A stretch of 50,511 nt of DNA from assembly GCA_024762995.1 (NCBI GenBank), contig JANTGI010000007.1, forward strand, positions 1 through 50,511. The letters run 5' to 3'. Below are positions 76 through 37,559 of this stretch, one piece after another (within the stretch, counting starts at the first letter, position 1; every line of letters begins with the position of its first letter). The DNA is from Saprospiraceae bacterium. GTDB taxonomy: Bacteria; Bacteroidota; Bacteroidia; Chitinophagales; Saprospiraceae. Under the pieces are notes generated by a model. That model searched no databases. It saw only the letters and a program-made list of their open reading frames with translations, and was not told the DNA's origin. The position numbers and the translations under genes are program-made.

Positions 76-1929
76 TTATTCTGATTGTGTCCCTAAGCAA
101 GCAGGCGTGCGAAGTTCTTTTGCTTTTACAAAGTCATCAAGTGCTAGGCGCATGGCTTTGGAATGGTCGCTGTGGCATTGGAGACATCGACCGACTTCTA
201 AGATGCGTTGTTGTTCAATAACTGTAAATGGTCGGGTATCATCATGGGTCACCGCTCGCTTTTTGGGTAAATCTAAAAACCCAATCCATGCATCTTGGGG
301 CAAACTATCGTGTGCCCAGTTTTCATATTCGGAGATGAATGTCCAAGGGGATTTAGGATTGTCCGGATTTTTTTGAAATTCTCCTCGTCCGTAGCCTAGT
401 GCATTGGGGTTGGCATGGCATGTTTTGCAATCTCTCCCTGTTGCCGAAATGGTATGCGCCACAATCGGAGCAAAAAGCCTTTGATGGGTCACATCATCGG
501 GTAGCTTCGTATAGCCGGATTGGTCTAAGGTGATAATCATGCCGGGTACAAAAGTAATAATCTCCCGTTTTCCATTGGATTCTCGTACGCCAAGAGAAGG
601 AAAATCCGCTAAAAATGGGCCCAAATCTTCATTCCATCGCCCGGAAATGTCTTTTTGCGCAAGCAAATCAAATCCCGGAGCCTTTGGATCATAAGAAGTA
701 TGACAATCAATACATTGGGGCGCCCATTGTGTATGACAAGCATTGCAAGTGACGTCGGCATGCACCGGAGCTTGGCATGTTTGGGCGGGTGGCGAAAGAG
801 AATATTTTTGTTGATTAATCTTGCCCACGAGGTAAGCATGGTTATTTTCGATATACACATTGGTTAGGTCTTGACCGCGAATGCCTTGTACAAACCGTTT
901 GTTTTGAGTATCTAGTTGGCGGAGTCGGATGATGGTTTTGGTATCGTATTGTAAGGAGTCATAGGGTTTTGTACGATGATTGGCTTGCGCAAAATGACAA
1001 TCCACACATTGACTGAGCTCGGCTTCCTGTTGGAAAGCATGAGTTTGGCCATCGCCCATCACTTCTAGACTTCCATGACAGTCGATGCAAGCCAATCCTT
1101 TGGCATGGTGGATGTCTTCGGCCACATATCGAAAAACCCGCTCATCATCCAATAAACGGTAGGAGCCGGTGTCGGGCATTGCTTCTTTCTCCAATCTAGT
1201 CTCATGCCAACCTTCGTAACTGGTGGAAATTCGTCCCGAACGACTATGACAACCAAAACAATGGTCATTACTCACCTGTAAGGAGATGGTTGGGTGAAAT
1301 TTTGAGACTTGCTTGTTGGCGTCAATTTTTTTGGCAAAATGCTCACTTGACTTGGCTTTGGTATAGTTTAGGTGACAGGCCAAACAGCCACCGCCCCTGG
1401 ACTCTTGTTGAATCGGGCCGAGCTCTTTTTTCTCTGCGCCCAAGTGGCAGGAAGCACACAAGTCCCTGTTATGGTTATCTGCCGGAGATTGTGTTAAGCT
1501 GTCAGCTATAAAGGTTCCATGATGGTTTTCACCAAAAACCAGCCGATTGATGGCAATAACTCCACTCATGGTATTCATGATGGAATGTTGTACCCGATAG
1601 TCGATGCCGGTATGGCAACCTGAAGTAGAGCAGGTACGAGACGCATCGGATAAATTTCCCGGAATGGGAATAATGCCGGCGTGTGCTTGCTGTTTGTCTT
1701 TTGCGGAAGCATCACCTAGGTGGCAAGCAGTACATCCGATGTCATGATGGCCTTCTGTAAATCCGGATAATTCGTGATGGCAAGAGTTGCATTGTTCGGT
1801 ATTGTCAGCCACGAAGCCCTCGGTGCCGGAGACGGTGTGTGGTCCCCATGTATAAAAACGGCTAACGCTCCATAGCATTAAGCCAATTAGTAGAAAAAAA
1901 ATAAAGTAAATGATGTTTTTTTTTGGCAT
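76..1929 (-). CDS. membrane-anchored multihaem (12-haem) cytochrome c
   Basis: Twelve c-type haem attachment sites are visible. Numbered from an upstream ATG at 2001, eleven are CXXCH (about residues 71, 90, 182, 206, 248, 305, 332, 419, 430, 525 and 606) and one is a CX4CH variant, CSTSGCH, at residue 124. A single hydrophobic segment near the N-terminus (about residues 30-45) looks like an uncleaved signal anchor, so the haem domain should face the periplasm. I prefer the ATG at 1929 because it places MPKKN directly before that segment; starting at 2001 would add 24 polar residues. Proteins of this kind carry electrons or reduce small oxyanions, but no specific reductase family is recognisable and the substrate is unknown. 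The gene is divergent from the DUF2157 gene. Many extra histidines could supply distal ligands. Identity as a multihaem cytochrome is certain; specific function is open. Confidence 0.9.
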   Translation of the reverse strand: MPKKNIIYFIFFLLIGLMLWSVSRFYTWGPHTVSGTEGFVADNTEQCNSCHHELSGFTEGHHDIGCTACHLGDASAKDKQQAHAGIIPIPGNLSDASRTCSTSGCHTGIDYRVQHSIMNTMSGVIAINRLVFGENHHGTFIADSLTQSPADNHNRDLCASCHLGAEKKELGPIQQESRGGGCLACHLNYTKAKSSEHFAKKIDANKQVSKFHPTISLQVSNDHCFGCHSRSGRISTSYEGWHETRLEKEAMPDTGSYRLLDDERVFRYVAEDIHHAKGLACIDCHGSLEVMGDGQTHAFQQEAELSQCVDCHFAQANHRTKPYDSLQYDTKTIIRLRQLDTQNKRFVQGIRGQDLTNVYIENNHAYLVGKINQQKYSLSPPAQTCQAPVHADVTCNACHTQWAPQCIDCHTSYDPKAPGFDLLAQKDISGRWNEDLGPFLADFPSLGVRESNGKREIITFVPGMIITLDQSGYTKLPDDVTHQRLFAPIVAHTISATGRDCKTCHANPNALGYGRGEFQKNPDNPKSPWTFISEYENWAHDSLPQDAWIGFLDLPKKRAVTHDDTRPFTVIEQQRILEVGRCLQCHSDHSKAMRLALDDFVKAKELRTPACLGTQSE

Positions 1930-2121
1930 CAAGGCGGATTGTATAGGTTGTGCAAGGTACGAGTTTTTGGGGATACCGCCGCAGAGTTTCGGTTTATTCA
2001 TCTAAAAACAGTATCTTGGCTGATATTTAAGAAAGATTTAGGCAAAAGACCAACAATGGCATTCAATACCTAACAATGACAAGTTTCTACCTAAAACAGA
2101 TGGGTTAACCAAAAGTAATCT

Positions 2122-4145: not shown

Positions 4146-4571
4146 ATGAAAAATCTAGTAAGTATTCAGCTTTTGGTATTGGTCTTTGTGGGTAGTTTGA
4201 CTTTGTTTTCAACTTCTTGTCAGCCATCTTCTGACTCCTCGTTTAAGAAAAGGGTCGCTAGAGGAAAAGAGTTATATGACAACTACTGTAAAGCTTGTCA
4301 TGGCAAAACCGGAGATGGTCCTTTGGCGAATGAGCTAAAGAAAACACCGCCCGATCTAACAAAGATTAGTGCAAGAAGAAACTCTCCTTCTTTTCCCGTG
4401 CTGGAAGTAGCCCAATACATTGATGGGCGGAAGGACGTAAGCACTCACGGAACCAGAGAGATGCCCGTTTGGGGAGATGAGCTAAAAGTGAAAGAGAATC
4501 TGGACGACGAAAAGGCACTTGAAGGTAAAATCGGGGACTTGTTGGCTTATTTGGAGAGTATTCAACGGTAA
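4146..4571 (+). CDS. monohaem cytochrome c lipoprotein
   Basis: A 141-aa protein with a hydrophobic signal sequence ending in a lipobox-like FSTSC (Cys about residue 25), so it is probably lipid-anchored. One haem site, CKACH, lies at about residue 49 within YDNYCKACHGKTGDG, a standard class I cytochrome c opening, and MPVWGDE at about residue 106 supplies a candidate axial methionine. This matches small electron carriers of the cytochrome_CBB3 type. It stands alone, about 170 bases after the GDYXXLXY gene. Its redox partner cannot be told from the sequence; the multihaem cytochrome nearby is one possibility. Confidence 0.88.
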   Translation: MKNLVSIQLLVLVFVGSLTLFSTSCQPSSDSSFKKRVARGKELYDNYCKACHGKTGDGPLANELKKTPPDLTKISARRNSPSFPVLEVAQYIDGRKDVSTHGTREMPVWGDELKVKENLDDEKALEGKIGDLLAYLESIQR

Positions 4572-4801: not shown

Positions 4802-6406
4802 CTATGCAAATGCTTCTTCCGGGACCGGTGTAGGAATTGGGACTCCATTGATTTCGCCATCGTTTCCGGCGATTTCTTCAATAGTGACTTGAAGGTCTTC
4901 CGTATTTTTGTGCAAAAGCTCATCAGTTGATAACCCAATGTTTTGGCTACCTTTTTTAACGAAATACACCCAAAGTATAATCAAGCCTTGTAACCAAAGG
5001 AACATGATAAATTTCTGCATGCTTGGGTTGTCAGAGAGTAGGGAATACCATTCTTTGGCTTCCCCTATAGCTCCACCTTCGCCAAAAATCATGGTTGCTT
5101 TTAGCAGGTGTTTGTGTGCATGTGGAAATAGGGTGTATGGTAGGTAACCGACCGCAAAGCCAATGAAACCGATTAATGTGTTTAGGTATCCCATCCCAAT
5201 ACGCATATAAGATCGAATCTCACAACCAATCAAGGTGACAGCTCCCAGACCAAGAGAAAATCCACCGAGGAAGTTTCCAATGGTTAGCCCTTTTTTGATA
5301 CCGGGACCCAATGCGGGAGAGACGCCTGTCAGCGTCCATGCAAGAAGCAAAAAGGCAGTTAATAGTACCCAACTGGTGGTTACTCCAATAATTGGATTGT
5401 AACTTCTCATCAGGGTACGAGTAATTTTTGGGACACCCATTTTGGCGAATTTTTTATCTTCTTTGGTCATTGCTCCGGCAACTTCTACAGAAACCAAAGC
5501 ACATTCCGTCCCAAATCCACTTTTTGCTAATGCGACACCGGCGACAGTACCCGCCAATAAGGTCAGGATGACAAATAACCAACCTTTGTCAGAAGGAGAG
5601 CCGCCATAATCTAAAATCGCCCCGTCAGAAGGGTTCATGTGTTGTAAATAAATCGGATTGCCCAAAGCTCCCCAAATAGCTGCCCCGACAAATAAAGCAG
5701 CAAATATGAGTCCTACCCAGAAGGCAGGGTTTTTCTTCCAACTATATCCTTTTTTGTAAGTAGCTTGCTCACCTGGATCCGCATGGCTGACATAATCGAA
5801 AGTTTCTTGATGCTTAAAATAGTTGGCTAATCCGAGTTTTTCCATAATGAAAAATCCCGTCGCTCCCCCTAATGCCATAAAAATAATAGAGCCGGTAGAA
5901 CGAATACCCATGACCGGTACACCACCCATCAAGTGAGTCAAGGTGCATCCCCCTGCCAGACGAGTACCATAGCTAAAGAAAGCACCGCCGATAAATGAAA
6001 CCAACAAGGCTTTTTTTGAATAATAAGCCCAAGCTCTAGATTCTTTTTCAAAGACGGTGACCAAAAAACCACCTAATATCATGCCTACAATCGGCCAACC
6101 TATCCCTGGGGTAAATACCCCACCGCTTGGTATCATTTGGTCTCCAACTTTGGCGTAGTTGCCATATAATTCACTATGGAAGCCAAAAATGTTATTGATG
6201 AATACTTCCAAAGTCCTATACATCCGACCCAAATCCGTGGTTACACTAATTGGAAATAAACCCGGCACCTTTCCAACAGCTACTTTGTGCTGCCAGGTAG
6301 CTAAAATAAAAATAATTTGGGCAACCGTAAAAACAATCCCTGCATAAAAATAGGGCCATTGTCTTTTGGTAAGGCGCTTGAAAAATGATTGCTTAGTTGT
6401 TGACAT
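4802..6406 (-). CDS. YeeE/YedE family sulfur-compound (thiosulfate-type) transporter
   Basis: A 534-aa polytopic membrane protein with two Sulf_transp-like halves. Three conserved cysteines are visible in family-typical glycine-rich settings: AGGCTLTHLMGG (Cys154), GFGTECALVS (Cys302) and LIGCEIRSYMRIG (Cys395). In the characterised thiosulfate transporter TsuA (YeeE), three cysteines relay the substrate through the pore; by pattern these three correspond, which I infer without a structural alignment. The N-terminus has about 20 polar residues before the first membrane segment, and the C-terminal 50 residues are acidic and soluble. The gene is divergent from a membrane-anchored rhodanese, supporting a role in moving thiosulfate or a similar sulfur compound. 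A Crp/Fnr-type site lies between the two genes. Confidence 0.88.
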   Translation of the reverse strand: MSTTKQSFFKRLTKRQWPYFYAGIVFTVAQIIFILATWQHKVAVGKVPGLFPISVTTDLGRMYRTLEVFINNIFGFHSELYGNYAKVGDQMIPSGGVFTPGIGWPIVGMILGGFLVTVFEKESRAWAYYSKKALLVSFIGGAFFSYGTRLAGGCTLTHLMGGVPVMGIRSTGSIIFMALGGATGFFIMEKLGLANYFKHQETFDYVSHADPGEQATYKKGYSWKKNPAFWVGLIFAALFVGAAIWGALGNPIYLQHMNPSDGAILDYGGSPSDKGWLFVILTLLAGTVAGVALAKSGFGTECALVSVEVAGAMTKEDKKFAKMGVPKITRTLMRSYNPIIGVTTSWVLLTAFLLLAWTLTGVSPALGPGIKKGLTIGNFLGGFSLGLGAVTLIGCEIRSYMRIGMGYLNTLIGFIGFAVGYLPYTLFPHAHKHLLKATMIFGEGGAIGEAKEWYSLLSDNPSMQKFIMFLWLQGLIILWVYFVKKGSQNIGLSTDELLHKNTEDLQVTIEEIAGNDGEINGVPIPTPVPEEAFA

Positions 6407-6492
6407 AAAAATTGTTTTTGGTTCATCCTTAAAAGAAAAAGGGTGTATTTTCGTCTTGCGGCCGCAAATTGGCTCAATTCTTTGATTAAATT

Positions 6493-6508
6493 TGTGATAC
6501 TGGTCACA
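6493..6508. promoter_or_regulatory. Crp/Fnr-type operator
   Basis: TGTGATACTGGTCACA is a perfect TGTGA-N6-TCACA palindrome lying between the divergent transporter and rhodanese genes. Its centre is about 41-42 bases upstream of the start predicted from the TACCTTTG element at 6530, the usual spacing for an activator that contacts polymerase next to a weak -33 region. The cognate regulator is not in this window. Confidence 0.65.
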
Positions 6509-6529
6509 TGATGATAGTTATTTCTACAA

Positions 6530-6537
6530 TACCTTTG
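6530..6537 (+). promoter_or_regulatory. -7 promoter element of the rhodanese gene
   Basis: TACCTTTG fits the Bacteroidota -7 consensus TAnnTTTG, 45 bases before the rhodanese ATG. No TTG sits at the -33 position; the Crp/Fnr-type palindrome lies just upstream instead, which suggests an activator-dependent promoter. Confidence 0.5.
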
Positions 6538-6582
6538 TCTTGCTAATTTACGGTGGATGTCTCTCGAATAAAAGAAAACAAC

Positions 6583-7026
6583 ATGAAAAAATTAATTTAC
6601 AGCTTCTTGGCCATTGATGTCATTATATTTGCTTTCTTAGCTATGAATGGTGGATTGAGCGCCCCAAAGTATGATTTGAAGCCGATGGCTTTTAAGCAAG
6701 CCATCGAAAACGGAAACGGTAAGCTGATAGACGTAAGAACTATTGAAGAGTATGAAAACGCCAGAATCCCTAATGCTACGCTTGTCAATTGGAAATCCAA
6801 GGATTTTAAGGATAGGATTCAACAATTTGATAAAAACGAGCCGATTTATATCTATTGCAGAACCGGAATGCGGGCAGCAAGAGCACAGCGTGCTATGAAA
6901 AAAATGGGTTTTAAAGAAGTCTTTAACTTGACGGGTGGGATTAAAGCTTGGGCCAAAGACGGCTTACCTGTAAAGAGTAAACCCGGTTATAACATAAATG
7001 ATAATAACGGAGAAGAAGGTTGTTAA
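6583..7026 (+). CDS. membrane-anchored rhodanese-like sulfurtransferase
   Basis: A protein of about 147 aa with an N-terminal hydrophobic segment (residues 4-22), then one rhodanese domain: LIDVRTIEEYENARIPNATLV and the active-site loop IYCRTGMRAARAQ with catalytic Cys92. GGIKAWAKDGLP closes the domain. A single extra cysteine is the last residue. The ATG at 6583 is preferred to the GTG at 6553, since it directly precedes a signal-type sequence. Rhodaneses transfer sulfane sulfur from thiosulfate or persulfides. Divergence from the YeeE/YedE transporter gene suggests that the two act in the same sulfur route on the outer side of the membrane. The gene ends just before a strong terminator. Confidence 0.9.
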   Translation: MKKLIYSFLAIDVIIFAFLAMNGGLSAPKYDLKPMAFKQAIENGNGKLIDVRTIEEYENARIPNATLVNWKSKDFKDRIQQFDKNEPIYIYCRTGMRAARAQRAMKKMGFKEVFNLTGGIKAWAKDGLPVKSKPGYNINDNNGEEGC

Positions 7027-12096: not shown

Positions 12097-12554
12097 ATTG
12101 AGTATTGAAAAACAGTCATAGCGGTTAATGAGTTAACCATATTATATTCTCGACTGTTTGTCACGCATTCTAGTCATTTTTTTTTTCTAAGCGGACTCTG
12201 CCCGTGTGGGCAGACAGGGTACATATTTTGATGTCCAACCGGGCGGGGTGAGTAAATTTAGACAAAAACAGCTACAGTTTTACGTATTTTTCTATCTTAG
12301 GCAGCAATATTACTTATTAGGGTATTTGTTATATGAATAGCAATATCCTTTCAGGGGAATACGTTTTGGAAGGAGTGATTGCCAGTATCAGGATTTGATT
12401 TATCTCCTGTTCTTATGAAGAATGCTCCCTTATTTCTTAAAAAAACCGTAAAATATTCGTTGGATATTTTTGGGCTAAAGGCCGAAGAAAAAAGCCAAAA
12501 GTAATATAATTGCCTTTTTTCCCCAATCCTAGAGTAATTAAGCTCAAAAAGGTG

Positions 12555-12562
12555 TATTTTTG
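12555..12562 (+). promoter_or_regulatory. candidate -7 promoter element of the SprB-repeat gene
   Basis: TATTTTTG matches TAnnTTTG and lies 43 bases upstream of the start codon of the 1527-aa protein. There is no clear TTG at the -33 distance, so this is tentative. Confidence 0.35.
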
Positions 12563-12605
12563 CCTACTATTTTGTGGTAATTTTTACAGTTGAAAAAAAA
12601 ATAGA

Positions 12606-15600
12606 ATGACGAATCGTGTAGCTTTTAGTGTTTTTATGTTGATGCTGCTTTTCTTTGTGTCGGTACCCTCCTACGCGCAAAAGCCAACCGCCATAAAAAT
12701 AGATGGGAAGATGAGTACGCAGGGAAGTCCGGAAACTTGTGCCGACCAAACCCCCGGCCATGTCACATTTTCTAACTTTAATGGTCAAAGTAATGACATT
12801 TGGGGTGACCCGGCAACGGATACGATATATCTCTGTTATAATGATCTTTTTAATTTATCGATTTCCGGTCAGGATTTATCCGGGGATCCGGATATGACTA
12901 CTTCTGCCGGTGTGGGATATGGTTTTTATAAGAACAAGCCGATTATCCCCGGGCCTGACCTTGTTAGTGTGGTTCAAGATGACCACTATTTTGATTTCTC
13001 GGGTACGGACTATTTACTCTCGACCGGATGTGATACTTCCGGTGCGCAAACCTTTGAGAATACCGGGATACTTCAGGGACTTCTCAATGGAGGTGCTCCG
13101 ATCTGTATTTGGTTTGCTCCAATTACTTACGACAACCTAGATCCACCATCCCCCACTGCTTGTAAAGCAACTTATGAAAATGGTGGTCCTTGTGTAAAGG
13201 TGGGAATCGATGAATCTTTTCCGGTTGTATATTTGAATGCCATTCAAGCAGATAATATTAACAATAATGACGGTGGCGGCTGTCGTGGGTCTTTCAGAGT
13301 GCTCGGTGGCTTGCCGGAGTATAATGCCAACACCCATTATGATATAGAAATATCAATGGTATCAGATCCGACTAAAAAAGCCTATTTATTGGGTAATCAC
13401 TATACGGATGGACAGTTGGTGCAATTTGAAGTGGGCGAAGGAGGTACTTATGGTATCCATATAAGTGACGGAAAGAGTTGTGATTATTATGGCACCGTCG
13501 ATATGCCGGGATGTAATTCTATCGGAATAGATATGATTGACACTTCGGCAGCAAAAGGAAGCAGTGTGTGTATCCCTGTCAGTGTAAGAGATTTTAACGG
13601 CATTGCTGCGTTGGAGTTTGCTTTTTATTGGGATTCGACAGTGGTTGCTTTTGACAAAATTATGGATCCGGGTGTTCTTGGTGTTAATGGTAATAATGTC
13701 ACGGTCAATCTAGTAGATTCTGCGCACTTAGTTTTATCATGGTCAGATCTTGGAGGAGTAACACTCGCTGATGGTACTGTTATCCTTGAAATATGTTTTA
13801 AGCTTAATGGGCCTTGGGGTAGTTCGACACCGATTTGGATAGGGCCGAATGTAAACGGAAATGGAATAAGCATATCCGGTACTAGTTTGGAACTTTATGC
13901 TCTTGATTATGCTTCCCATAAAGGGAGTATAACCATATTAAATCCGAATGCGATGACCATTAATTTGGATTCAACGGACGTAGTTTGTAAGGGGGAGAGT
14001 ACGGGTTCTTTTTCGGCGAATGTGCTGGGAGGGGGCGGTTTTCCGGTCACTATGGATTGGCAAGAAGTCGGAGGCACTCCTTCCGGAAGTGAAACACTTA
14101 CGACGAGCGGTCAGAACATAACCGTGACTGATTTGCCGGCAGGTACCTATAACTTGCACTTTACCGATAGCGTAGGGGCGGTTCAAGATACGAGTATCAT
14201 CATTGAAGATGGCTATCAATTAGGCGCCAATCTTCCTCCCGTAAATACCTTGTGTAATGGAGATACGATGCATATTTGTCCGATTGTCTCTAAAGATTTT
14301 GTGACGATTAATGATTTAAGCGGCTATAGCTTTTTATGGGAGAATGGGAGTAGTGATATGTGTAGGGATACCATACCGGCCGGATTCTTTGCCATAACGG
14401 TAACAGACCCTGCCGGTTGTGTGGCTACTTCATCTGCGACACTTACCCAGCCATCAAGTATCGTCTTAAATCCATTGGTTACCGAGCCAACCTGCGTAGG
14501 TGTCAATACCGGTCAAATAGAAATTACCCCTACGGGAGGTACGACGACTCCTATGGTAGGAGGTGACTACAACTTTAATTGGGACAATACAGGTTTTACC
14601 ACAAATATTTCATCTACTCTTTCTGGTTTGGGACAAGGGACTCATTATATTCGAGTTACTGACGATAATAATTGCGAGGTCACAGATTCCTTTACTTTGG
14701 TTTATCAAAAAACATTAAACTTATCAGGGACCGGGCAAGACATCTCGTGTGCCGGGAGTGATGATGGTCAGATTGGGGCAGAAGTCAGTAGTGTCGGGGG
14801 GACTCAAGCTTTACCATATTCTTATGCTTGGAATCCAAACGTAACGAGTGTGACTCAACCGACTGCGGATTCTGTGAAGGCCACCTTATTAGCACCGGGG
14901 TTATATGAAATCACCGTAACTGATGGGGATGGTTGTACGGATAGTACTAGCGTGGTATTATCGGAGCCGGATTCTATTATCATTACGTTGGATAGTATTC
15001 ATCATGAATCTTGTACCACAGGAGCAGATGGATTTATAGCTATATCGGCTACAGGAGGCGCCGGTGGATATTCTTATGCGTGGGACAATGGTCCGACAGT
15101 TCCCGTTAATGCTGGTATTGTAGCGGCCTCCTATACGGTTACTGTTACAGATGCCAACGGATGCTCAAAGGAAGCAACTTATACCGTTTTGCCGCCGACA
15201 CCACCGGTGATTACAGGTTTTACGAAAGTAAATGTTAACTGCCCTACAGACAATAATGGTAGTCTAACGCCAATGGTAACCAATGGCAACGGGACACTTA
15301 TCTTATACAGTTGGGGCAACGGCTCCACCGCATCAAATGTTACCGGATTATCGTCCGGAGTTAATTGCTTAACCGTTACGGATGAATATGGTTGCCAAGC
15401 GATGGCTTGTGATACAATTGTTTCTACACAAGGGTTTTATATCTTGGATACCAAATATTTTAAACCGCAGTGTCCGGGTATGTCTAACGGAAGTATTTTG
15501 GTCACCATGAGTAATCAAGACACTTTTGACTTTGCTTGGGATTATGATAATACCAACCATACGAATATTCTTTCCAATATTCCGGCAGGCAATTATAATG

Positions 15601-17189
15601 TGACCATCACCGATTTAAATAGTACCTGCCCGCCACTAAATGCTTCTTTTACCTTACAAGATACGCATTCTATTGTCACCAATATACAGTTATTGAATGG
15701 GGTCAGTTGTTTTGATGGTTCCGCTACAGATGGAAGTGCCAATGTTACGGCCATTTATTCCGACAGTACCACCAATACATTTGATTTCTCTTGGCAAGGA
15801 GGGTATATGTGTCAGGCAACTACCTCATGTACAGCCACAAATCTGGCGATGGGACCGGTCATTGTGACGGTGGATGATGGTACCTGTATCGTACAAGATA
15901 CAGTCATGATTCCGGCACCGGATAGTATAAAAGTAACGACGGCCATTACAAATACCACTTGTTATGGGGATAGTGACGGGAGTATTTTTGCTATTGGCTC
16001 GGGAGGGACTCTGATTTCTAGTTTGGATTATTCTTATGGATGGTCTCCATCGGGACAAACAGGGCCTAATCTAACTAATGCGCCGGCCGGAAATTATGAT
16101 TTGTTGGTGACAGATGATGTGGGTTGTTCTGAACTTTTCCATTTAGTGATTAATGAGCCGGATTCTTTAGAAGTATTGATAGATTTGACCAAGACAGTTG
16201 ATGTTTATTGTTATGGAGACTCTACCGGTCAGATATATGTGCAGCCGATTGGTGGTAATGCCAATACGGGATATACCTATGCATGGTCGCCCAACGTATC
16301 GGATTCTAATGTGGCTTCCTTACTTACCGCCGGTACTTATCAGGTGACGGTGTCTGACGGACTTGGATGTACGCAGGAGTTGACCCATGTGCTTTCGCAA
16401 AATGATCCAATTTCGGCGACCTTAAGTCCTATTGTAGAGCCGGAATGCTTTGGTTATCAGACGCTTATTTCTATTGATACGGTGATTGGGGGTTCCGGTG
16501 GGCCTTATAGCTTTTCTGTTGATTTTAGTCCGCCAAAAAGTATCCAATTAGATTTTCCGGTTTTTGCCGGCCCGCATGTAGTTCGAGTATTAGATGCCTA
16601 TGAATGTTCGAGTGAATATAACGTGGATATAGCTGAGCCGGATGAGATTTATGTGAATTTACCTGAATCCATTACGGTTGAATTAGGAGATAGTATCCAG
16701 TTGAATCCGGTTATTAGCTCTAGTCTGCCTATTGATTCCTTTTATTGGTCTCCGGTAATGTATTTGATGCCGGATAGTGTCTTGCATCCGCAAGTAGTTG
16801 GATTGACCTATGACCAAGTATATGAATTAGTTGTAGTAGATGCCAATGGCTGTACCAAGGAGGCAAGCACTTTGGTGGAAGTTGACCGAAATCGGAACGT
16901 ATATATACCAAATATCTTTTCCCCCAATAATGACGGGTTTAATGATGTTTTCTTCCCCAAAACAGGTATTGGCGTGAAGCAAGTAAACTTTATGAATGTT
17001 TACGATCGATGGGGTGAAATCATCTATGAAGCGAAGGAATTTTTGCCAAGAGACAATTCTACTCAATCTTGGGATGGGACGTACAAAGGCAAAGCTATGA
17101 ATCCCGGAGTATATATTTACTTGATTGAAGTAGAGTTTATGGATGGGGTTAAGCTTCTTTATCGAGGAGATGTGACATTATTGCGATAA
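12606..17189 (+). CDS. T9SS type B surface protein with cohesin-like domain and SprB-like repeats
   Basis: A 1527-aa secreted protein. A signal peptide (residues 1-24, ending SVPSYAQ) is followed by a unique N-terminal region. A cohesin-like domain lies at about 301-445 (opening GIDMIDTSAAKGSSVCIPVS, with the pattern ALEFAFYWDSTVVAFD and a later GTVILEICFKL). Next come about ten SprB-like repeats (about 455-1400), each with a Cys near its start, a G-rich turn, a YxYxW segment and a final GCxxE/T. The C-terminal 95 residues form a gliding-motility-associated (type B) sorting domain: VYIPNIFSPNNDGFNDVF, YDRWGE, WDGTYKGK, PGVYIYLIEV. Such proteins are exported by the type IX system and anchored at the surface, often as adhesins. 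No PorP/SprF-like gene is adjacent. A strong terminator follows. Confidence 0.9.
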   Translation: MTNRVAFSVFMLMLLFFVSVPSYAQKPTAIKIDGKMSTQGSPETCADQTPGHVTFSNFNGQSNDIWGDPATDTIYLCYNDLFNLSISGQDLSGDPDMTTSAGVGYGFYKNKPIIPGPDLVSVVQDDHYFDFSGTDYLLSTGCDTSGAQTFENTGILQGLLNGGAPICIWFAPITYDNLDPPSPTACKATYENGGPCVKVGIDESFPVVYLNAIQADNINNNDGGGCRGSFRVLGGLPEYNANTHYDIEISMVSDPTKKAYLLGNHYTDGQLVQFEVGEGGTYGIHISDGKSCDYYGTVDMPGCNSIGIDMIDTSAAKGSSVCIPVSVRDFNGIAALEFAFYWDSTVVAFDKIMDPGVLGVNGNNVTVNLVDSAHLVLSWSDLGGVTLADGTVILEICFKLNGPWGSSTPIWIGPNVNGNGISISGTSLELYALDYASHKGSITILNPNAMTINLDSTDVVCKGESTGSFSANVLGGGGFPVTMDWQEVGGTPSGSETLTTSGQNITVTDLPAGTYNLHFTDSVGAVQDTSIIIEDGYQLGANLPPVNTLCNGDTMHICPIVSKDFVTINDLSGYSFLWENGSSDMCRDTIPAGFFAITVTDPAGCVATSSATLTQPSSIVLNPLVTEPTCVGVNTGQIEITPTGGTTTPMVGGDYNFNWDNTGFTTNISSTLSGLGQGTHYIRVTDDNNCEVTDSFTLVYQKTLNLSGTGQDISCAGSDDGQIGAEVSSVGGTQALPYSYAWNPNVTSVTQPTADSVKATLLAPGLYEITVTDGDGCTDSTSVVLSEPDSIIITLDSIHHESCTTGADGFIAISATGGAGGYSYAWDNGPTVPVNAGIVAASYTVTVTDANGCSKEATYTVLPPTPPVITGFTKVNVNCPTDNNGSLTPMVTNGNGTLILYSWGNGSTASNVTGLSSGVNCLTVTDEYGCQAMACDTIVSTQGFYILDTKYFKPQCPGMSNGSILVTMSNQDTFDFAWDYDNTNHTNILSNIPAGNYNVTITDLNSTCPPLNASFTLQDTHSIVTNIQLLNGVSCFDGSATDGSANVTAIYSDSTTNTFDFSWQGGYMCQATTSCTATNLAMGPVIVTVDDGTCIVQDTVMIPAPDSIKVTTAITNTTCYGDSDGSIFAIGSGGTLISSLDYSYGWSPSGQTGPNLTNAPAGNYDLLVTDDVGCSELFHLVINEPDSLEVLIDLTKTVDVYCYGDSTGQIYVQPIGGNANTGYTYAWSPNVSDSNVASLLTAGTYQVTVSDGLGCTQELTHVLSQNDPISATLSPIVEPECFGYQTLISIDTVIGGSGGPYSFSVDFSPPKSIQLDFPVFAGPHVVRVLDAYECSSEYNVDIAEPDEIYVNLPESITVELGDSIQLNPVISSSLPIDSFYWSPVMYLMPDSVLHPQVVGLTYDQVYELVVVDANGCTKEASTLVEVDRNRNVYIPNIFSPNNDGFNDVFFPKTGIGVKQVNFMNVYDRWGEIIYEAKEFLPRDNSTQSWDGTYKGKAMNPGVYIYLIEVEFMDGVKLLYRGDVTLLR

Positions 17190-29489: not shown

Positions 29490-32400
29490 TTAGTTTACAA
29501 TATTGATATCTCCATGGAACTCAATGATTCGTCCGTCAATGTATTTGAGTTTAATGATATAGACGAAGACTCCTTTTTCGACTTTTTTGCCACGATAAGT
29601 TCCATCCCAACCTTCGCTATAGTTATTAAGCGAGAAATGCTCTTTTGAAAAGATATGGCTACCCCAGCGATCATATATCTGCATCGTCACAACTTCTTCA
29701 ATCCGCTCTGTATTGCCCAAGACGGTGAAGTAGTCATTTTGTCCGTCTCCATTGGGAGAGAACACATTGGGGATAAATACATCCGGATCCGCAACATGTA
29801 CAGTTGTCTTAGTATGAGCTACACATCCCAAAGTATCCACCAGCGTAATATTATAAACCGTGGTCACCATCGGTTTGACGGTTTGTTTTAGGCAGTTGTC
29901 TAAGCAGTATAAATCTTGGATAGGATTCCAAATGATGGTGTCTATCGCATCTAGAGGCGTACTGGTAAACACTTCAATAGTGGTGCTGTCGCCCAGTTTT
30001 ATTTGGGTATCCGGTTCTACCAAAATATCTCCTTCTGTAGGAATGGGTAGATTAACGGTTTCGGAATATTCACACCCCATCTCATCCTGAATCACCACTT
30101 CATAGTCTCCCGGATTTAGTCCGATACCAATTGGGATGTTTCCGAAATGTTGCCCACCGTCAAAAGAGTAAGTAAATGGAGCTTTCGACCCAATTACATC
30201 TGTAACAATAAGCGCACCTGTGCGACCGTCACAACCCGGTAGAGATTTCACAATGTTTGCACCGGTCAGGGGAGCAACTTCCGATACAGAGACATCATCT
30301 TCACTGGCACATCCGGTGTGCATGTCGATTACTTTTAATCGGTAGGTTCCTATTTTATCGACAATTGGGTTGGGTAAGTTATTAGCAGAAACGAAATGCC
30401 CGTCTTGTGTCGTCCACTCAAAGATTACGTTATTCATATTGGCATTGTCCAAGTTTCCTATTTGTACCAACGTAGTCGCACAATCTTGTTTTTGGATATC
30501 ATCGGCATCTGCCAAGGGTGCTGTATAGTCAGAAAAAGCTTCAATGGTTTTTGTGGCCGTACAACCGGTGCTCGGATTGGTTACCACTGCAGTATATAAA
30601 CCGGGCTGGCTGACTAGAATGTTTACGTTTGTGGGGTCACTGTTTATGACTCCATTATCGCTGTGCCATTCAATGGAATAACTGTTATCTGTAAGTGCAC
30701 TGACCGTAATTAGTGTATCTTTACAAGTAAGTGTGTCGATGGCAGAAAGGTTTAATTGTGGTACATCCACTGATGAATTTACCGTAACACTAGAAGTCGT
30801 GGTACACCCTGAGCCATTATCTGTGACCACAACCGTGTATGTCCCTGATTGGCCGACTAATGGATTGGAAGTTGTATCTCCGCTAACAATGGCCGAAATT
30901 GGACTCCAATCATAGCTATAATTGCCACTACCACTAGTGACATCGGCTTCAATAAATACTTGTTGAATACTGCAGCTAATAGGTTGGTTGGATAGGGTGG
31001 TAACGGCTGGCGGTGTAGTATTTTCGACGATGTTGATGGATGTCGAAGCTTTACAGCCATTTGCCGGGTTTTCTGCGGTAATGGTATATTGTCCTCCCGC
31101 ACAGATGGTTGGCTGAAGGGTTGATTGCCCGCTTTGAATACTACCGGAAACCGTTGACCAAGTATAATTGGTATTTGATGGATTTGTTCCTGCGGCTTCC
31201 AATTGAATACACGATGTTTTACAATTAATTTCCTGTGTTGGCGCAAGTATGCTAATGCTGGGTGATAATGTATCTATATCCACCACTGTTGTTGCAGAAG
31301 CCGTACATCCATTCGTCAAGTCAGTAACTTCTAATTGATACATTCCGGCTTGCGTGGCATCAGTAATCAGTGCTTGGGTGTTACCGGATAAACTTCCATT
31401 GGATGTGGACCATTGATAAGCATAATTGCTTCCTACATCTGAACCATTACCACTTAGGAAAACAGTATTATTTATACAACTTAATTTATCATGCGGCTCT
31501 ACAATCATAGCGGTAGGTTTGACGGTATCCATTAGAACCGTAGCAATAGAATACGTAGAGACATTGGATACCGTGTCCAATATGGTTAAACGATAATCTC
31601 CCGGCATATCGACGACAATTACTTTGGTACCTTGGCCACTAAGGATGTTGCCGGAAGTCGTTGTCCAATTGTATGTAAAGTTAACTCCATCGCTGGACGA
31701 AGATCCATCAATAGTTACTGTTGAAGTTTGACAATCCAGTGTGTCCGTTGGTGCAAAAACCACTTCTAGGTTTCCGACTTTGATATATACGGTTGCGGTG
31801 TCGCATAGTGTCGGAGTGCCCGTGTCGCAAACGATGTAATCAAATTGATCATAGCCATTAAAGTTGGTATTCGGCGTATAAACAAAAGTTCCATCGGTAT
31901 TTAGCGTAAGCGTACCATATGTCGGCCCGTTTATCGGAGAAGTATTTACAACCAATCCGTCACCATCCAAGTCATTGTCATTAGCTGTTACATTTTCACT
32001 GACAATAGGCTGATTGGTTGGCGTCGAATAATTATCATCTATGGCAATTGGCGGATCATTTACGGGTGTCACCGTGATATAAACCGTTGCGGTATCGCAT
32101 AAGGCCGGTGTTCCATGATCGCAAACTTGATAGACAAAACTGTCCGGACCGTTATAGTTTAGGTTGGGCACATAAGTAAATGTTCCGTCTGCATTCAAGG
32201 TTAAACTACCATGACTTACATCAATTACCGGAGTTGTACTGACCACTAAACTATCTTCGACTTCCGTGTCATTTGTCGTTACATTATCCGATAAAGGTGT
32301 ATCTTCCGGAGTTGTATAATTGTCATCTATGGCAATTGGCGGATCATTTACTGGTGTTACTGTAATATAGACCGTTGCGGTATCGCATAAGGCCGGCGTG

Positions 32401-35400
32401 CCTGCATCACAGACTTTATAGACAAAACTATCGGTCCCTACGTAGTTGGATGCCGGTACATAGGTAAAACTACCATCTGTATTTAGCGTAAGCGTACCAT
32501 TGGACACGTCGGTAACAGGCGTTGTATCATAATTCAGGCTTCCGCCATCCGGATCGGTATCATTAAGAGCAACAGATCCGGATAAAGGGGTGTCTTCCGG
32601 TGTGGTAAAATTATCATCAATAGCAATTGGTGGGTCATTTACCGGAGTTACCGTAATATAGACGGTTGCCGTATCACATTGTTGAGGGTCACCCGTATCA
32701 CACACTTGATAGATGAAGCTATCCGAACCATTATAGTCCGGATTGGGTGTATAGGTAAAAGTGCCATCGTTGTTTAATACTAAAACCCCATGTGTTACAT
32801 TCGAAATCGGCATGGTATCTACTATCGCCCCCGCAGGAGTGTCATTAGTCGATACATTTGCATTTAAAGGCGTATCTTCAGGCGTTGTGAAATTATCATC
32901 TACCGCATCCATTCCCTGGGTTAAAGGAACCACAAAGCTGGTCAAACTACAAAGGCAGTTAGAATTAGACGGAGCGATTTCTACGATTAGTCCGTTGGCC
33001 GGATTACAAGAAGTACTTGCGTAAAAATATTGCGTAAAATCAAGTGTGTCACCTGTGAGCAAAATATCCGAGAAACTGCCTAAATAAATAGAAGTACCCG
33101 GGTTGCCGGAGCCATCCGCACAGTAAACGGTATAGTTGTATCCGGATGTCGCATCTATTCCTATATTTTGTAGGTTTAAGTGGAGACCGTATTTTGTGTC
33201 GCCCAAAGATGTCGTCATGTAAGTAGCAACAGTATTGCTGGTTATGACTAAATCCGGCTTAGCAATGGTCAAAGAGTCTATTTGATGACCGGTAGGGATT
33301 TTTATAGGAGCACAAGCTGCGGAACCACAGAAGCCTCCTGTCGAGTAAATATAGGATTCAATATCAAAATAAGAATTGTCGCTACAGTAACTATTACTCG
33401 TCACGACATCAAATTGATAATTGATGCTGTCTTTATTACCTACTCCTTGCGGAAAAACCAGGACTATGTGGTCTTGTCCGGAGTTGATGTATTTATATCC
33501 AAAAGTGGCACAATTAGGGCCGTTACAATTCAATGAACCATCAACGAACTTTAAGCCCACCGGAATGGTAATATCGGCAGAATCAATAATGCCGGTTGTT
33601 CCTGCAATAATTGTCGATTTAACATCCACAGTTAATGTTGTTCCGCAATTTTTAATAGTATCCGGAAGCGTGAATTCGCTATAAGCATAATATGCCGTAT
33701 TCGCTCCTATGACTACAAGGTCGTTTCCGGAAACGCTCATACCATTACCTGCCGCCGGCGCATGACAAGGGCTTTCGCCAAATGCTTGTACACCAATAGT
33801 ATGCAAATTCAAAAAGCCACAATCCAATGCAATGTACATTTCTACGGTTGCAATTCTTCTATCATCTTGACTCTCCAGATAGCTACCTAACATTCCATCG
33901 GTGCCTATGCCGGAGTGATTACTTAGGTCTATCCTTAGTTGGTTGCCTACTACGGTAGCGGGAACAGACTCTCTATTGCCGGAGTTTTTGGGATATTCAA
34001 CGATAATGCTGTCCACCGACATGCTACTAATACTGCCCGGTATTTCGACTAGTAAATATGGATTTAATAAATTGGCCACTTGGGCACTATTCACTTCCAT
34101 GACCATTTTAAAAGGATCACAATATTGGATAGAGTCCGGTTGCTGGGTTATATCTAGTTGAACCTGAGCGGTTTGAATAGAAAGTGTAATGTCTATACTC
34201 TTTTGGTAACAAATAGTATCTAAACCGGCATAATCCGTGGGATAAGCCTGACAATCCCACCCATTAGACACGGTGATAGTTTGATTACTACACGACAAAA
34301 TATTTCCATAAATTCGGACCATTTTGCATTCTGTGGGGCCTGATTTTACCTGTCCTGCTTCGACCCAAGTCTCATCAGCCAACGTCGTAAAATTAGTTGA
34401 GGCGACTTCATTTCCTGCTGCATCCAACATAAATGCCTTGGTCACTTGAAAATCAGGGTGATTATTGATTTTCAACCAATTATAGTCAATATCGACCGGA
34501 CTGGTATTGCAAATTTCAACATCAATATATGTTTCGTTATTCACAACGGTCACATTAGGATGCGGACTATGCAATTCAAATTGTGGACGATAATAGGTGA
34601 ATTTCGGATGCCCTGTTTTTGAGATTGGTGTTGGGTTTACATAAGCGTATTTTTGATAGAATACAGTATAAGTATAAGGAGTTTCGGCATCCGCTTCGCA
34701 AGTACCTATGAATTCCGGTCTAAACCTAGGATATCTTGTTCCCGTTTGATCCAAATTCTTAAAATTAGGCCCCGGATAAACAATCAAAGAATCACCACGA
34801 ACTTGATAAGTAACCCCTCCATTCGTTTCGGAATAAGCAGGGTTGTATGAAGTTGTATAGTTAAAATACCGGATGCTTCCTGTAAACCGAACACCTTTAG
34901 GCATGACAATAACTGTGGAGTCCCAAGTTACCGGATTTCTAAATTCATTCGGAAATAAATCGCCTATATCCGAATAATTATTAAAAAAGAGTTGCTGTTC
35001 AGACGGGTCGCAGTACCAAGCCTTCACGCCATTTACACTATTAGATGTTTGTCTTCTCACTTTCAGATAGTCAACCTGCTCATACAAAGAGCCACACCCG
35101 GTTTCTATGGTGCCATTTTTTGCAAAGAAAGTCGCACTAAAATTATTTAATTTAAAATATTTAATATCATTAAACTTATCAGTAAGTATTAAATTTAATT
35201 TTAGGGCAACGGTATCGTTTTGATTGCCTTCGCCATATTGATAACTACCGGAAACTAAATTTTTGTAATTGGAAATATCAAAAGTCAGTTTGTAGCTATT
35301 AGGTCCTACTATTGTTTTTGTTGGGGCCGACATCATTGGACCGGAGAATACACCGGCAGATATATCATTTATGGTAATGGTTCCATCAACAAAATCAAAC

Positions 35401-37559
35401 AAATCTTCATCTCCACCACCCGTTGCGGTCTCATAGGCCATCTCAAAAAATAAGTTTTGCACGGTAGAATCTTGAATGACCGCAATGGCATCAACTTGCA
35501 TCGTATCATTGGCCATATATTTATCTAGGGCAAAACTGTTATCTAAGGTCACCCGAGTTGTCTTTGAAGCGTCCGTCCATCCGGCTACTGTCCGGTGCGA
35601 ATCAAACGAGACGATGGCTGGGCCCTTGCATGGTGTAGGACATAGATTTTGTATTTCGACGCTTCCGCAATGGATATCAGCGTCCCAACAAGTACAATGA
35701 TAGTGTGTCTTATAGGATATCGTAAACTTTTCGGGACCTGAATAAGTAGCGCAATCAAATGTAAGAGGGAAGTTATAATATTTATAATTATAACCACTTT
35801 GGGTATAAGTAATGGTGTTTCCTACTTGACTGAAACCGGCCGGTGCTGAACTTTGCAAATTCACTCCATTTGGAACGGTCAATTCAATCGACCATACAAC
35901 ATTTGAGCCAGTAAACATATCTTCACCATTACATTTGGGCGCTCCAAGCGTGATCCAACCTCCTCTATAAAAATGGGGTTTTAGTCCAAATATAAAATCT
36001 TCGCCATCTGCCACACCGTTTGGACTGGTTGTGGTTGTTTCATTAAGATAGTCTCGAATGATATTAGAATATTCGAAGTTAATACGCTCTGTATATCGCT
36101 CGTTGGCGCATTGGTCCTTAAATAGAGCATCTATATAAAGGTGTTCCCACGTTATGTAATCATGCCTTTTGGTACCGCAATCGGCCAAAGGAGTATATTC
36201 GTAATCAAAACTAACATCAAAATGAGCGCCCGGAGCTAAATCATCAAAATAACCATCACCATCTATATCTTCCAAGCCCCCGGGTCCATCGGGGTCAGTG
36301 ACAAAATAATCATACGGAATACGCATTGAATTTCCGGAACCGCGAGTGGGATATATTGTACTTGGCCAATTAGTGGTGGTCACCGGATGTCCATTAATTT
36401 TTACATTGCTCAGGTGTCTAATGTTTTTCCAGTCAAAAGCCCAAAAAGGATTGGAGTCATAGTCTGACAGAGGAGAGTTGTTGTGACCTAGTCCCAAGTT
36501 AACGTTGATATCTTTGGCCATGGCACCGGGGTGTGTGGCGATATTTTCGATGCGAATGGTAAAATTTTGACCACCGCATAAATCCATATAATTGTCCCCT
36601 GCTATTTTTTTGACAGTTACTTCCGGTACCGAACCTTGAAAGTTAAGGACTCCGGTTTCCGGCTCTGAAACTTGACAGAGTTCTGACAATGAACACCCCC
36701 AAGCACCTTGGTGAATGACATCGACATCACTACAACCCTGTACTTGAAAACTTTCGTCAAATTCGATGGTTTCTCCGTTTTCAAAGAGGGCATCGCCATT
36801 TCCTACTGATCCCAAAAACGGAGCTTGATCTAAGTAAATGTTGTAAAAGTAAGTATTGCCTGCTATGGAATCCGGTGTGAGAGAAGTGCCTTTATAGGAT
36901 AATTGATAATTTCCGATTTCACTACCTATCTGTACCCTGTGTTGGTACCACTTTAACCAACCTTGCCCTCCTTGGACCATAGTGATCTTTCTGGAGATTG
37001 TCTGCCCAACTATGACATCTTTATCCGGAATAGACTGAAGTGCCAAGCTAGGCACAAGTACCTGATAATTTGATACATTTGGATTTAAATTAGAAAAATG
37101 GTGGACCGTGGGCCCTTGCGTCAAATCAACGATTTGAATGTCCTTAAATAGCGCACCACTATTCAACGGGCCGACGGCATTACATCCGACTCTTTTCGCA
37201 AATCGAAAGCGAATTATATCTCCGAGTCCGGCTGTACCACCACTTTGTGGGAAAATAGTAAAAACAGGAGCATTAATGGTACCAGTTGGGGCGGTACTAT
37301 TATATTTCCCGCCCGGGTTTTGGGTAATGGAAAAACTGCCATTTACATAGGTGACGCCCGTCGGAAGTTGAAATTCAACAGTTAGATATTTTAGATTTGT
37401 TGCTTTATACAAAATTTCTACTTCGACAAAAGATGTGTCACATGGATGTACATCTTCCGGAAATATTTTCATGCGCATAATATTATTGTCAAATTGCGCA
37501 AATAGGCTAATTGTGGACAATAAGAATAAAATAGGTAGAACTATTAACCGCCTTTTCAT
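29490..37559 (-). CDS. giant T9SS type B surface protein with cadherin-like and PKD-like repeats
   Basis: About 2689 aa from the ATG at 37559, chosen because it directly precedes the signal peptide KRRLIVLPILFLLSTISLFA; the ATG at 37613 adds 18 residues. About 1500 N-terminal residues are beta-rich with paired cysteines and resemble DUF11-like/CARDB-like cell-surface modules. Four cadherin-like/VCBS-type repeats of about 96 residues follow (DDNFTTPEDTPL to VYITVTPVNDPP). Then come about seven PKD/Ig-like units of about 85 residues (YxWT, then SGxYxxxVTD), one SprB-like unit, and a type B sorting domain (VFIPNVFSPNGDGQNDYF, YDRWGS, WDGTYRGKK). It is probably a long adhesin or gliding-related filament on the cell surface. 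No PorP/SprF gene is nearby. Confidence 0.9.
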   Translation of the reverse strand: MKRRLIVLPILFLLSTISLFAQFDNNIMRMKIFPEDVHPCDTSFVEVEILYKATNLKYLTVEFQLPTGVTYVNGSFSITQNPGGKYNSTAPTGTINAPVFTIFPQSGGTAGLGDIIRFRFAKRVGCNAVGPLNSGALFKDIQIVDLTQGPTVHHFSNLNPNVSNYQVLVPSLALQSIPDKDVIVGQTISRKITMVQGGQGWLKWYQHRVQIGSEIGNYQLSYKGTSLTPDSIAGNTYFYNIYLDQAPFLGSVGNGDALFENGETIEFDESFQVQGCSDVDVIHQGAWGCSLSELCQVSEPETGVLNFQGSVPEVTVKKIAGDNYMDLCGGQNFTIRIENIATHPGAMAKDINVNLGLGHNNSPLSDYDSNPFWAFDWKNIRHLSNVKINGHPVTTTNWPSTIYPTRGSGNSMRIPYDYFVTDPDGPGGLEDIDGDGYFDDLAPGAHFDVSFDYEYTPLADCGTKRHDYITWEHLYIDALFKDQCANERYTERINFEYSNIIRDYLNETTTTSPNGVADGEDFIFGLKPHFYRGGWITLGAPKCNGEDMFTGSNVVWSIELTVPNGVNLQSSAPAGFSQVGNTITYTQSGYNYKYYNFPLTFDCATYSGPEKFTISYKTHYHCTCWDADIHCGSVEIQNLCPTPCKGPAIVSFDSHRTVAGWTDASKTTRVTLDNSFALDKYMANDTMQVDAIAVIQDSTVQNLFFEMAYETATGGGDEDLFDFVDGTITINDISAGVFSGPMMSAPTKTIVGPNSYKLTFDISNYKNLVSGSYQYGEGNQNDTVALKLNLILTDKFNDIKYFKLNNFSATFFAKNGTIETGCGSLYEQVDYLKVRRQTSNSVNGVKAWYCDPSEQQLFFNNYSDIGDLFPNEFRNPVTWDSTVIVMPKGVRFTGSIRYFNYTTSYNPAYSETNGGVTYQVRGDSLIVYPGPNFKNLDQTGTRYPRFRPEFIGTCEADAETPYTYTVFYQKYAYVNPTPISKTGHPKFTYYRPQFELHSPHPNVTVVNNETYIDVEICNTSPVDIDYNWLKINNHPDFQVTKAFMLDAAGNEVASTNFTTLADETWVEAGQVKSGPTECKMVRIYGNILSCSNQTITVSNGWDCQAYPTDYAGLDTICYQKSIDITLSIQTAQVQLDITQQPDSIQYCDPFKMVMEVNSAQVANLLNPYLLVEIPGSISSMSVDSIIVEYPKNSGNRESVPATVVGNQLRIDLSNHSGIGTDGMLGSYLESQDDRRIATVEMYIALDCGFLNLHTIGVQAFGESPCHAPAAGNGMSVSGNDLVVIGANTAYYAYSEFTLPDTIKNCGTTLTVDVKSTIIAGTTGIIDSADITIPVGLKFVDGSLNCNGPNCATFGYKYINSGQDHIVLVFPQGVGNKDSINYQFDVVTSNSYCSDNSYFDIESYIYSTGGFCGSAACAPIKIPTGHQIDSLTIAKPDLVITSNTVATYMTTSLGDTKYGLHLNLQNIGIDATSGYNYTVYCADGSGNPGTSIYLGSFSDILLTGDTLDFTQYFYASTSCNPANGLIVEIAPSNSNCLCSLTSFVVPLTQGMDAVDDNFTTPEDTPLNANVSTNDTPAGAIVDTMPISNVTHGVLVLNNDGTFTYTPNPDYNGSDSFIYQVCDTGDPQQCDTATVYITVTPVNDPPIAIDDNFTTPEDTPLSGSVALNDTDPDGGSLNYDTTPVTDVSNGTLTLNTDGSFTYVPASNYVGTDSFVYKVCDAGTPALCDTATVYITVTPVNDPPIAIDDNYTTPEDTPLSDNVTTNDTEVEDSLVVSTTPVIDVSHGSLTLNADGTFTYVPNLNYNGPDSFVYQVCDHGTPALCDTATVYITVTPVNDPPIAIDDNYSTPTNQPIVSENVTANDNDLDGDGLVVNTSPINGPTYGTLTLNTDGTFVYTPNTNFNGYDQFDYIVCDTGTPTLCDTATVYIKVGNLEVVFAPTDTLDCQTSTVTIDGSSSSDGVNFTYNWTTTSGNILSGQGTKVIVVDMPGDYRLTILDTVSNVSTYSIATVLMDTVKPTAMIVEPHDKLSCINNTVFLSGNGSDVGSNYAYQWSTSNGSLSGNTQALITDATQAGMYQLEVTDLTNGCTASATTVVDIDTLSPSISILAPTQEINCKTSCIQLEAAGTNPSNTNYTWSTVSGSIQSGQSTLQPTICAGGQYTITAENPANGCKASTSINIVENTTPPAVTTLSNQPISCSIQQVFIEADVTSGSGNYSYDWSPISAIVSGDTTSNPLVGQSGTYTVVVTDNGSGCTTTSSVTVNSSVDVPQLNLSAIDTLTCKDTLITVSALTDNSYSIEWHSDNGVINSDPTNVNILVSQPGLYTAVVTNPSTGCTATKTIEAFSDYTAPLADADDIQKQDCATTLVQIGNLDNANMNNVIFEWTTQDGHFVSANNLPNPIVDKIGTYRLKVIDMHTGCASEDDVSVSEVAPLTGANIVKSLPGCDGRTGALIVTDVIGSKAPFTYSFDGGQHFGNIPIGIGLNPGDYEVVIQDEMGCEYSETVNLPIPTEGDILVEPDTQIKLGDSTTIEVFTSTPLDAIDTIIWNPIQDLYCLDNCLKQTVKPMVTTVYNITLVDTLGCVAHTKTTVHVADPDVFIPNVFSPNGDGQNDYFTVLGNTERIEEVVTMQIYDRWGSHIFSKEHFSLNNYSEGWDGTYRGKKVEKGVFVYIIKLKYIDGRIIEFHGDINIVN
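31770..32911 (-). repeat. four in-frame tandem cadherin-like repeats
   Basis: Units of about 288 bases inside the giant gene, near-identical at their junctions (protein VYITVTPVNDPPIAIDDN at three boundaries; plus-strand GGCGGATCATTTAC at 32049 and 32338). Units 2 and 3 are the most alike; the outermost, 5'-most and 3'-most, are more diverged. Confidence 0.85.

Follow-up and report, generated by a model that had tools for sequence, protein, structure and literature searches.

CstR, SqrR/BigR and FisR sense through cysteines and control genes for the handling of sulfide and persulfide, PDO, SQR, TauE and YeeE/YedE genes among them, as described in PMC9774590 and PMC7315123. They are of the CsoR, ArsR and sigma54-activator types; the examples cited there come from Firmicutes and Proteobacteria and include no member of the Crp/Fnr family. 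One section of PMC9774590 lists CstR, SqrR/BigR, PigS, FisR, OxyR, LasR and OhrR as reactive-sulfur regulators, again with no Crp/Fnr protein among them, and searching PMC9774590 for 'bacteroid' found no occurrence. A literature search on crp together with sulfane-sulfur or persulfide sensing listed no title on a Bacteroidota Crp sensor; companion searches probably missed the slash spelling Crp/Fnr, and we do not claim absence from print. The locus described here carries a predicted Crp/Fnr-type operator between two divergent sulfur genes of a Saprospiraceae bacterium.

A conserved palindrome between divergent sulfur genes

The window, by which we mean the whole stretch of 50,511 nucleotides that was analyzed, contains one exact match to TGTGA-N6-TCACA. 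This palindrome, TGTGATACTGGTCACA (6493-6508, not assigned to a strand), is a predicted site for a Crp/Fnr-type dimer. It lies between divergent open reading frames at 4802-6406 (minus strand) and 6583-7026 (plus strand), where the original prediction had put an exact palindrome, between a YeeE/YedE gene and a rhodanese gene. The plus-strand frame encodes a rhodanese-domain protein of 147 aa (Pfam PF00581, 82.6 bits), also listed with an upstream GTG start at 6553; from a signal read by eye, the protein is probably exported or membrane-anchored. The minus-strand frame encodes a YeeE/YedE-type sulfur transporter of 534 aa (PF04143, Sulf_transp). It is a permuted fusion, with the C-terminal half of the family first and the N-terminal half second: residues 4-182 match Sulf_transp 164-309, and residues ~348-438 match 29-119, this second match being below the cut-off. 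At another locus, L244, each part has a gene of its own, and the two genes lie side by side, ordered as in the fusion.

The spacing of the palindrome suggests an activator site. A TAnnTTTG promoter box for the rhodanese gene, TACCTTTG, lies at 6530-6537 on the plus strand, 21 nt after the palindrome. The transcription-start map of Flavobacterium psychrophilum, in its account of this box, places TAnnTTTG at -12 to -5 (PMC9723704), which would put the rhodanese transcription start at 6542 (plus strand) and the centre of the palindrome at -41.5, as for a class II activator site. The centring near -41.5 that had been proposed is reproduced in this way from TACCTTTG and the published box position, and the class II geometry supports the accompanying view that the spacing suits activation at the rhodanese promoter. 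On the other side, a look for a YeeE promoter box found a weak element: CAATTTGC, read on the minus strand at 6464-6471 and offset by 21 from the palindrome, is a possible weak box. NAnnTTGC at offset 21 also occurs in two congeners (G002 and G001), and a third (G003) has a poorer version at offset 22 (offsets counted by eye).

Rhodanese orthologues were found in three of four congeners (91, 69 and 68% identity). All three congeners with the rhodanese/YeeE pair keep the palindrome, two of them exactly and one with a single mismatch, and the TAnnTTTG box lies exactly 21 nt downstream in all four orthologous regions. The alignment shows conserved half-sites and a conserved box set in flanks that have diverged. 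The fourth congener, a 79% complete genome, gave no YeeE match at E <= 1e-15. At that threshold, orthologues of the 534-aa YeeE were found in 4 of 46 genomes, all of the genus, so conservation of the window site rests on four genomes; a YeeE match was also seen in two Winogradskyella loci of an 80-locus Bacteroidota set. The original prediction had named loss of the palindrome in relatives as a reason to abandon it; palindrome and spacing are instead kept in all four genomes that have the pair (this one and three congeners). Exactness, conservation and spacing together support, by computation, the reading of the palindrome as a Crp/Fnr-type operator.

The genome itself (3,676,171 bases in 241 contigs) contains three exact TGTGA-N6-TCACA sites, compared to none for the reversed control. 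The second lies between genes for a 105-aa rhodanese and a LysE-type protein (C23:9131) and the third within a coding open reading frame (C82:12387). With up to one mismatch the bare pattern occurs 65 times, compared to 40 for the control, a mild and noisy enrichment. A refined pattern, TGTGAYNNNNRTCACA, also with up to one mismatch, was enriched in the five genomes of the genus that were searched (27/9, 17/8, 30/8, 19/4 and 36/14). Matches in the window with up to two mismatches were set aside as evidence: there were 14, compared to 22.6 expected, and because this count is below chance it is the exactness and the position of the palindrome that matter.

Other features of the window include a 641-aa multihaem cytochrome (76-2001, minus strand) similar to ExtM from operons for selenite/tellurite reduction (226.7 bits, compared to a cut-off of 800), with a cytochrome c near it at 4146-4571; a SprB-repeat protein of 1527 aa that carries a type IX secretion signal (12606-17189); and two very large minus-strand open reading frames, of 2707 aa (29490-37613) and 2133 aa (42946-49347).

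Similar sites precede other sulfur and thiol genes

We examined 50 of the 65 one-mismatch sites in the genome, those among the matches listed. Of the 19 intergenic sites among them, 8 have TAnnTTTG at 21-22 nt, and none of the 31 coding sites does; at random nearby positions it was found in 10 of 3800 cases. Boxed sites precede rhodanese genes in the window and on contigs C23, C16, C67 and C87 (the last behind a porin gene). The C23 site has a LysE-type exporter gene on its other side, and this divergent LysE/rhodanese site is kept in all of G001, G002 and G003, where it is flanked on either side by a box at 21/22. Other boxed sites belong to genes for a thioredoxin-like protein (C10), a DUF6588 protein (C46) and a small protein that matches no Pfam family (C6:315). 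The recurrence of similarly spaced sites before rhodanese, LysE-type and thioredoxin-like genes strengthens the proposed connection to sulfane-sulfur use. With the refined pattern, sites were found on C116 and C143, each with a box at 21 nt, before open reading frames of 533 and 507 aa, and at a coding position on C133.

Weaker boxes accompany some of the sites. A one-mismatch site at C16:5859 precedes a gene for a metallo-beta-lactamase/rhodanese fusion and has TATCTTTA at 22, and a site at C6:48436 precedes a tandem rhodanese pair and has CAACTTTG at 21 (both boxes by eye). We call proteins with Lactamase_B and Rhodanese domains PDO-type, for persulfide-dioxygenase-type; the C16 fusion scores 55.3 bits with the curated model for bifunctional ST/SDO Blh, compared to a cut-off of 625. 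No TTTG box was found at 20-23 from the one-mismatch site of the genome's own PDO-type gene. An SQR-like gene on C56, whose protein is likewise far below its curated-model cut-off, has a site with no TAnnTTTG within 60 nt. At L244, a Saprospiraceae locus, an exact site is followed at 21 nt by the box-like TTTCTTTG and then by PDO-type, sulfate permease, YeeE-type and DUF6691 genes.

Other sites were seen in genomes of the genus. An operator with TAGCTTTG at 21 nt occurs at position 1938 of L322 (G000) and 1501 of L095 (G001) before similar-looking proteins, one of 507 aa and one in an open reading frame cut at 459 aa, whose N-termini are alike by eye. An exact palindrome at position 29 of L323 (G002), at the start of a contig, precedes hydrogenase-like genes (named by eye).

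A candidate regulator with cysteines that align with the cAMP pocket

A search of the genome with PF13545 found six proteins, two of which form a tandem pair, Crp1/Crp2, at C16:12205-13528, on a different contig from the window. Crp2 has 213 aa (12205-12846, minus strand; locus L052) and Crp1 is the adjoining 234-aa open reading frame. A check suggested with the prediction was to find the Crp/Fnr protein with the matching recognition helix, and it singled out the C16 pair: only these two of the six read SRExxSR, and the other four read AKETVIR (C81), SRQTVTT (C47), SRQTVTF (C54) and ARNVLNR (C37). The pair lies ~6 and ~8 kb from the PDO-type gene and a gene for a 92-aa rhodanese.

Domain scores place Crp1 in the Crp/Fnr superfamily (HTH_Crp_2, 38.5 bits with a cut-off of 27; Crp, 27.8 with a cut-off of 21). 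For cNMP_binding (cut-off 27.5), Crp1 is below the cut-off, at 22.6, and Crp2 above it, at 35.9. The model of a Crp1 homologue from Phaeodactylibacter luteus (L241; pLDDT 90.5) matched CRP-family structures, among them 4ev0 (Z 17.7, rmsd 3.6, 199 aligned). At E <= 1e-15 Crp1 had matches in 46 of the 60 relatives searched and, counted without regard to cysteines, homologues at E <= 1e-30 were present in 65 of 198 sampled Bacteroidota genomes. A PDO-type or rhodanese gene lies near Crp1/Crp2 homologues at 58 of 80 loci in the Bacteroidota set and at 23 of 41 loci in a second set; the two sets use different flanks, of up to 10 kb, and overlap in part (L142 and L254 have contigs of equal length and identical Crp1 proteins). 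We consider it highly probable that the window palindrome is an operator for a Crp1/Crp2-type regulator. This assignment is well supported by computation, strong but indirect. The regulator genes lie elsewhere than beside the window site.

Three cysteines distinguish Crp1. In the numbering of the 234-aa frame, Cys93 is present in 47 of 47 sequences, Cys99 in 40 and Cys100 in 38, and these are the only cysteine columns common to at least 8 of the 47. The full Cys-x5-Cys-Cys triad occurs in 77 of 83 sequences of the 80-locus set. The three cysteines align with the phosphate-binding cassette of CRP, in which E72 and R82 contact the phosphate of cAMP. In a pairwise alignment of 33.9 bits, possibly off by a residue, E72 is gapped and R82 is replaced by lysine in Crp1, and the residue before the invariant serine varies among Crp1 relatives. 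With these contacts not kept and a score of 48.8 for NF008732 (cut-off 266), Crp1 does not resemble a cAMP-activated CRP. FNR has N-terminal cluster cysteines; the score of Crp1 for the FNR model NF008365 was 23.6, compared to a cut-off of 228, and neither by this score nor by its shared cysteine columns does Crp1 resemble FNR. In the L241 model the corresponding cysteines, 80, 86 and 87, lie just before and within a helix at 81-89. Crp2 of the genus keeps the first cysteine only, with serine at the positions of Cys99 and Cys100, and retains the SRExxSR helix; it may be a differently tuned partner of Crp1.

We put forward sulfane-sulfur sensing as a hypothesis, because its basis is the position and conservation of the cysteines and the linkage of the genes. 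The original prediction suggested that oxygen, nitric oxide or redox state might be sensed. Both the candidate regulator and the genes around it point to sulfane sulfur and thiol chemistry, leaving oxygen and nitric oxide unsupported; redox sensing in a broad sense is compatible with what we found.

Operator type follows the recognition helix

Crp1 homologues with an RExxSR helix (E-type) pair with TGTGAY-N4-RTCACW, and those with RVVxSR (V-type) with KGTAAC-N4-GTTACM, at the same spacing; several PDO-type promoters of V-type genomes have KGTAAC-N4-GTTACM in place of TGTGA. We scored 63 upstream regions of PDO-type genes, taken from 41 genomes after one of 64 matches had been omitted as truncated, assigning to each genome the helix type of its best Crp1 homologue. 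Regions paired with an E-type helix gave 14 E sites, 1 V site, 2 ties and 20 with none. Those paired with a V-type helix gave 0 E, 12 V and 14 with none, so that no site was found in 34 of the 63 regions. Among 1260 shuffled sequences, 1 was called as E and 2 were called as V. The Fisher p value is 7e-7, with kinship ignored and the V motif chosen partly on the same promoters; for this last reason the 80-locus set is the fairer test. There, E-type loci had 13 E sites, 1 V site and 13 with none, V-type loci had 33 V, 3 E, 1 mixed and 14 with none, and two loci with both kinds of helix had V sites; no site was found in 27 of the 80 loci. In this set the TAnnTTTG offset was 21 for 13 of the 17 E occurrences and for 47 of the 56 V occurrences.

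In a tree built from 120 proteins, 116 of them different, with the helix columns removed, helix type changes five times, and helix and operator agree in 73 of the 77 rows with both traits. Over three independent pairs (four on all branches), the two traits changed in the same direction 2.4 times on average and never in opposite directions; these pairs are too few for significance in a sign test. Among the exceptions, three loci of the Winogradskyella clade (L289, L305 and L318) combine a V-type helix with TGTGA-type sites at a spacing of 20, which could reflect either a swap of regulators or another mode of recognition. TGTGA-type palindromes lie before or near PDO-type genes at position 6138 of L289, 3678 of L318 and 12494 of L305. 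One locus (L312) has an E-type helix, SREVISR, with V sites, and members with SREVISR may be less strict than those with SREA[VI]SR. Mixed operators occur in L282, a V-type locus, and in G017.

The genome-wide contrast between E and V genomes was modest. The density of the V pattern is 0.61 per Mb over 20 V genomes, compared to 0.10 per Mb over 23 E genomes. Genome-wide it is not enriched, since in each group it occurs less often than its reversed control (48 compared to 103 in V genomes and 12 compared to 76 in E genomes). The E pattern, on both strands, occurs 121 times in E genomes (39 for the control) and 62 times in V genomes (43 for the control). A change from glutamate to valine at the helix position leading to GTA-type sites would fit the behaviour of NtcA and of mutants of CRP at E181; a literature search on CRP Glu181 specificity found no paper, and another found PMC2633013 only.

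Proposed mechanism and alternatives

We infer that a Crp1/Crp2-type dimer would bind the palindrome at -41.5 and activate the rhodanese promoter as at a class II CRP site, perhaps activating the divergent YeeE gene as well. The site would be one member of a dispersed regulon for the handling of sulfide and sulfane sulfur, comprising genes for rhodaneses, the metallo-beta-lactamase/rhodanese fusion, the LysE-type exporter and the thioredoxin-like protein, to which relatives would add TauE, SQR-like and YeeE/DUF6691 genes. Sulfane sulfur would probably be sensed by Cys93, Cys99 and Cys100 through persulfide or polysulfide links. Taken as a whole, with the sensing included, we regard this thiol-based, sulfane-sulfur-responsive class II activator as somewhat probable from the sequences.

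The alternative that survives best, although unlikely, concerns the signal. Crp1 could be the regulator and sense, instead of sulfane sulfur, an oxidant, metal, nucleotide or low-molecular-weight thiol; its cysteines would then be structural or serve as ligands of a metal or cluster. Crp2, which keeps the first cysteine only, would fit this, as would two findings in the part of PMC7315123 on such proteins: glutathione activates PrfA and Vfr, and the Crp of A. baumannii is persulfidated, with unknown effect. The near-invariance of the three cysteines and the repeated linkage of Crp1 to PDO-type, rhodanese, SQR-like and TauE genes argue instead for sulfane sulfur.

It is distinctly improbable that another Crp/Fnr protein of the cAMP, oxygen or nitric oxide type (those on C81, C47, C54 and C37, or one missed by PF13545) acts at the site, with the sulfur genes belonging to a respiratory or anaerobic regulon. 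In favour of this reading, a Crp-type HTH occurs in six proteins of the genome, structures close to the Crp1 model include HcpR of P. gingivalis, and TGTGA-N6-TCACA is the textbook CRP site, as presented in PMC2633013. However, the SRExxSR helix is limited to the C16 pair and differs in the other four, operator and Crp1 helix change together from relative to relative, and many of the sites are followed by sulfur or thiol genes.

A chance palindrome in a conserved promoter is very improbable: sites with one or two mismatches are common, but this one is kept in four of four genomes at a fixed spacing while its flanks diverge, and exact sites number three genome-wide, compared to none in the control. 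The left half reads TTTGTGA, similar to a TTGTGA-like half site, but the chance that a Rex-type redox repressor binds here is negligible, since the inner bases differ from the Rex consensus, the -41.5 position suits an activator, and PF06971 (the Rex N-terminal domain) had 0 matches in this genome and was positive in 7 of 14 control genomes.

Comparison with known systems

Crp1 and its predicted operator share with E. coli CRP and its class II promoters the fold, the TGTGA-N6-TCACA sequence, an R-E-x3-R helix and the -41.5 centre. They differ from E. coli CRP in the cysteine triad in the pocket, the cAMP contacts that are not kept, the Bacteroidota promoter box and the sulfur regulon. Cyanobacterial NtcA has, by alignment, the R-V helix of V-type Crp1 members, and its operator, GTA-N8-TAC, matches KGTAAC-N4-GTTACM. 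NtcA senses 2-oxoglutarate and controls nitrogen genes, and Crp1 scores 44.7 with the NtcA model (cut-off 244.95). The best sequence match to Crp1 in the PDB is 3dv8 (4.4e-17), a Crp/Fnr protein of Eubacterium rectale with C-x5-C in the same place, described in the PDB as a putative regulator.

More generally, and tentatively, with somewhat less than even confidence, we suggest that a widespread class of Bacteroidota Crp/Fnr activators has a Cys-x5-Cys-Cys sulfane-sulfur sensor in place of the cAMP site and governs the detoxification and oxidation of sulfide and sulfane sulfur, and that a glutamate-to-valine change in the helix re-specified the operator from TGTGAY to KGTAAC more than once. 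If so, a large phylum gains a Crp/Fnr regulator of sulfur stress with a predicted operator, targets and sensor residues, and the E and V helix types are a natural experiment in DNA recognition. By analogy, the system in the window would work like the control of sulfide genes by CstR, SqrR/BigR or FisR, with a regulator from another superfamily.
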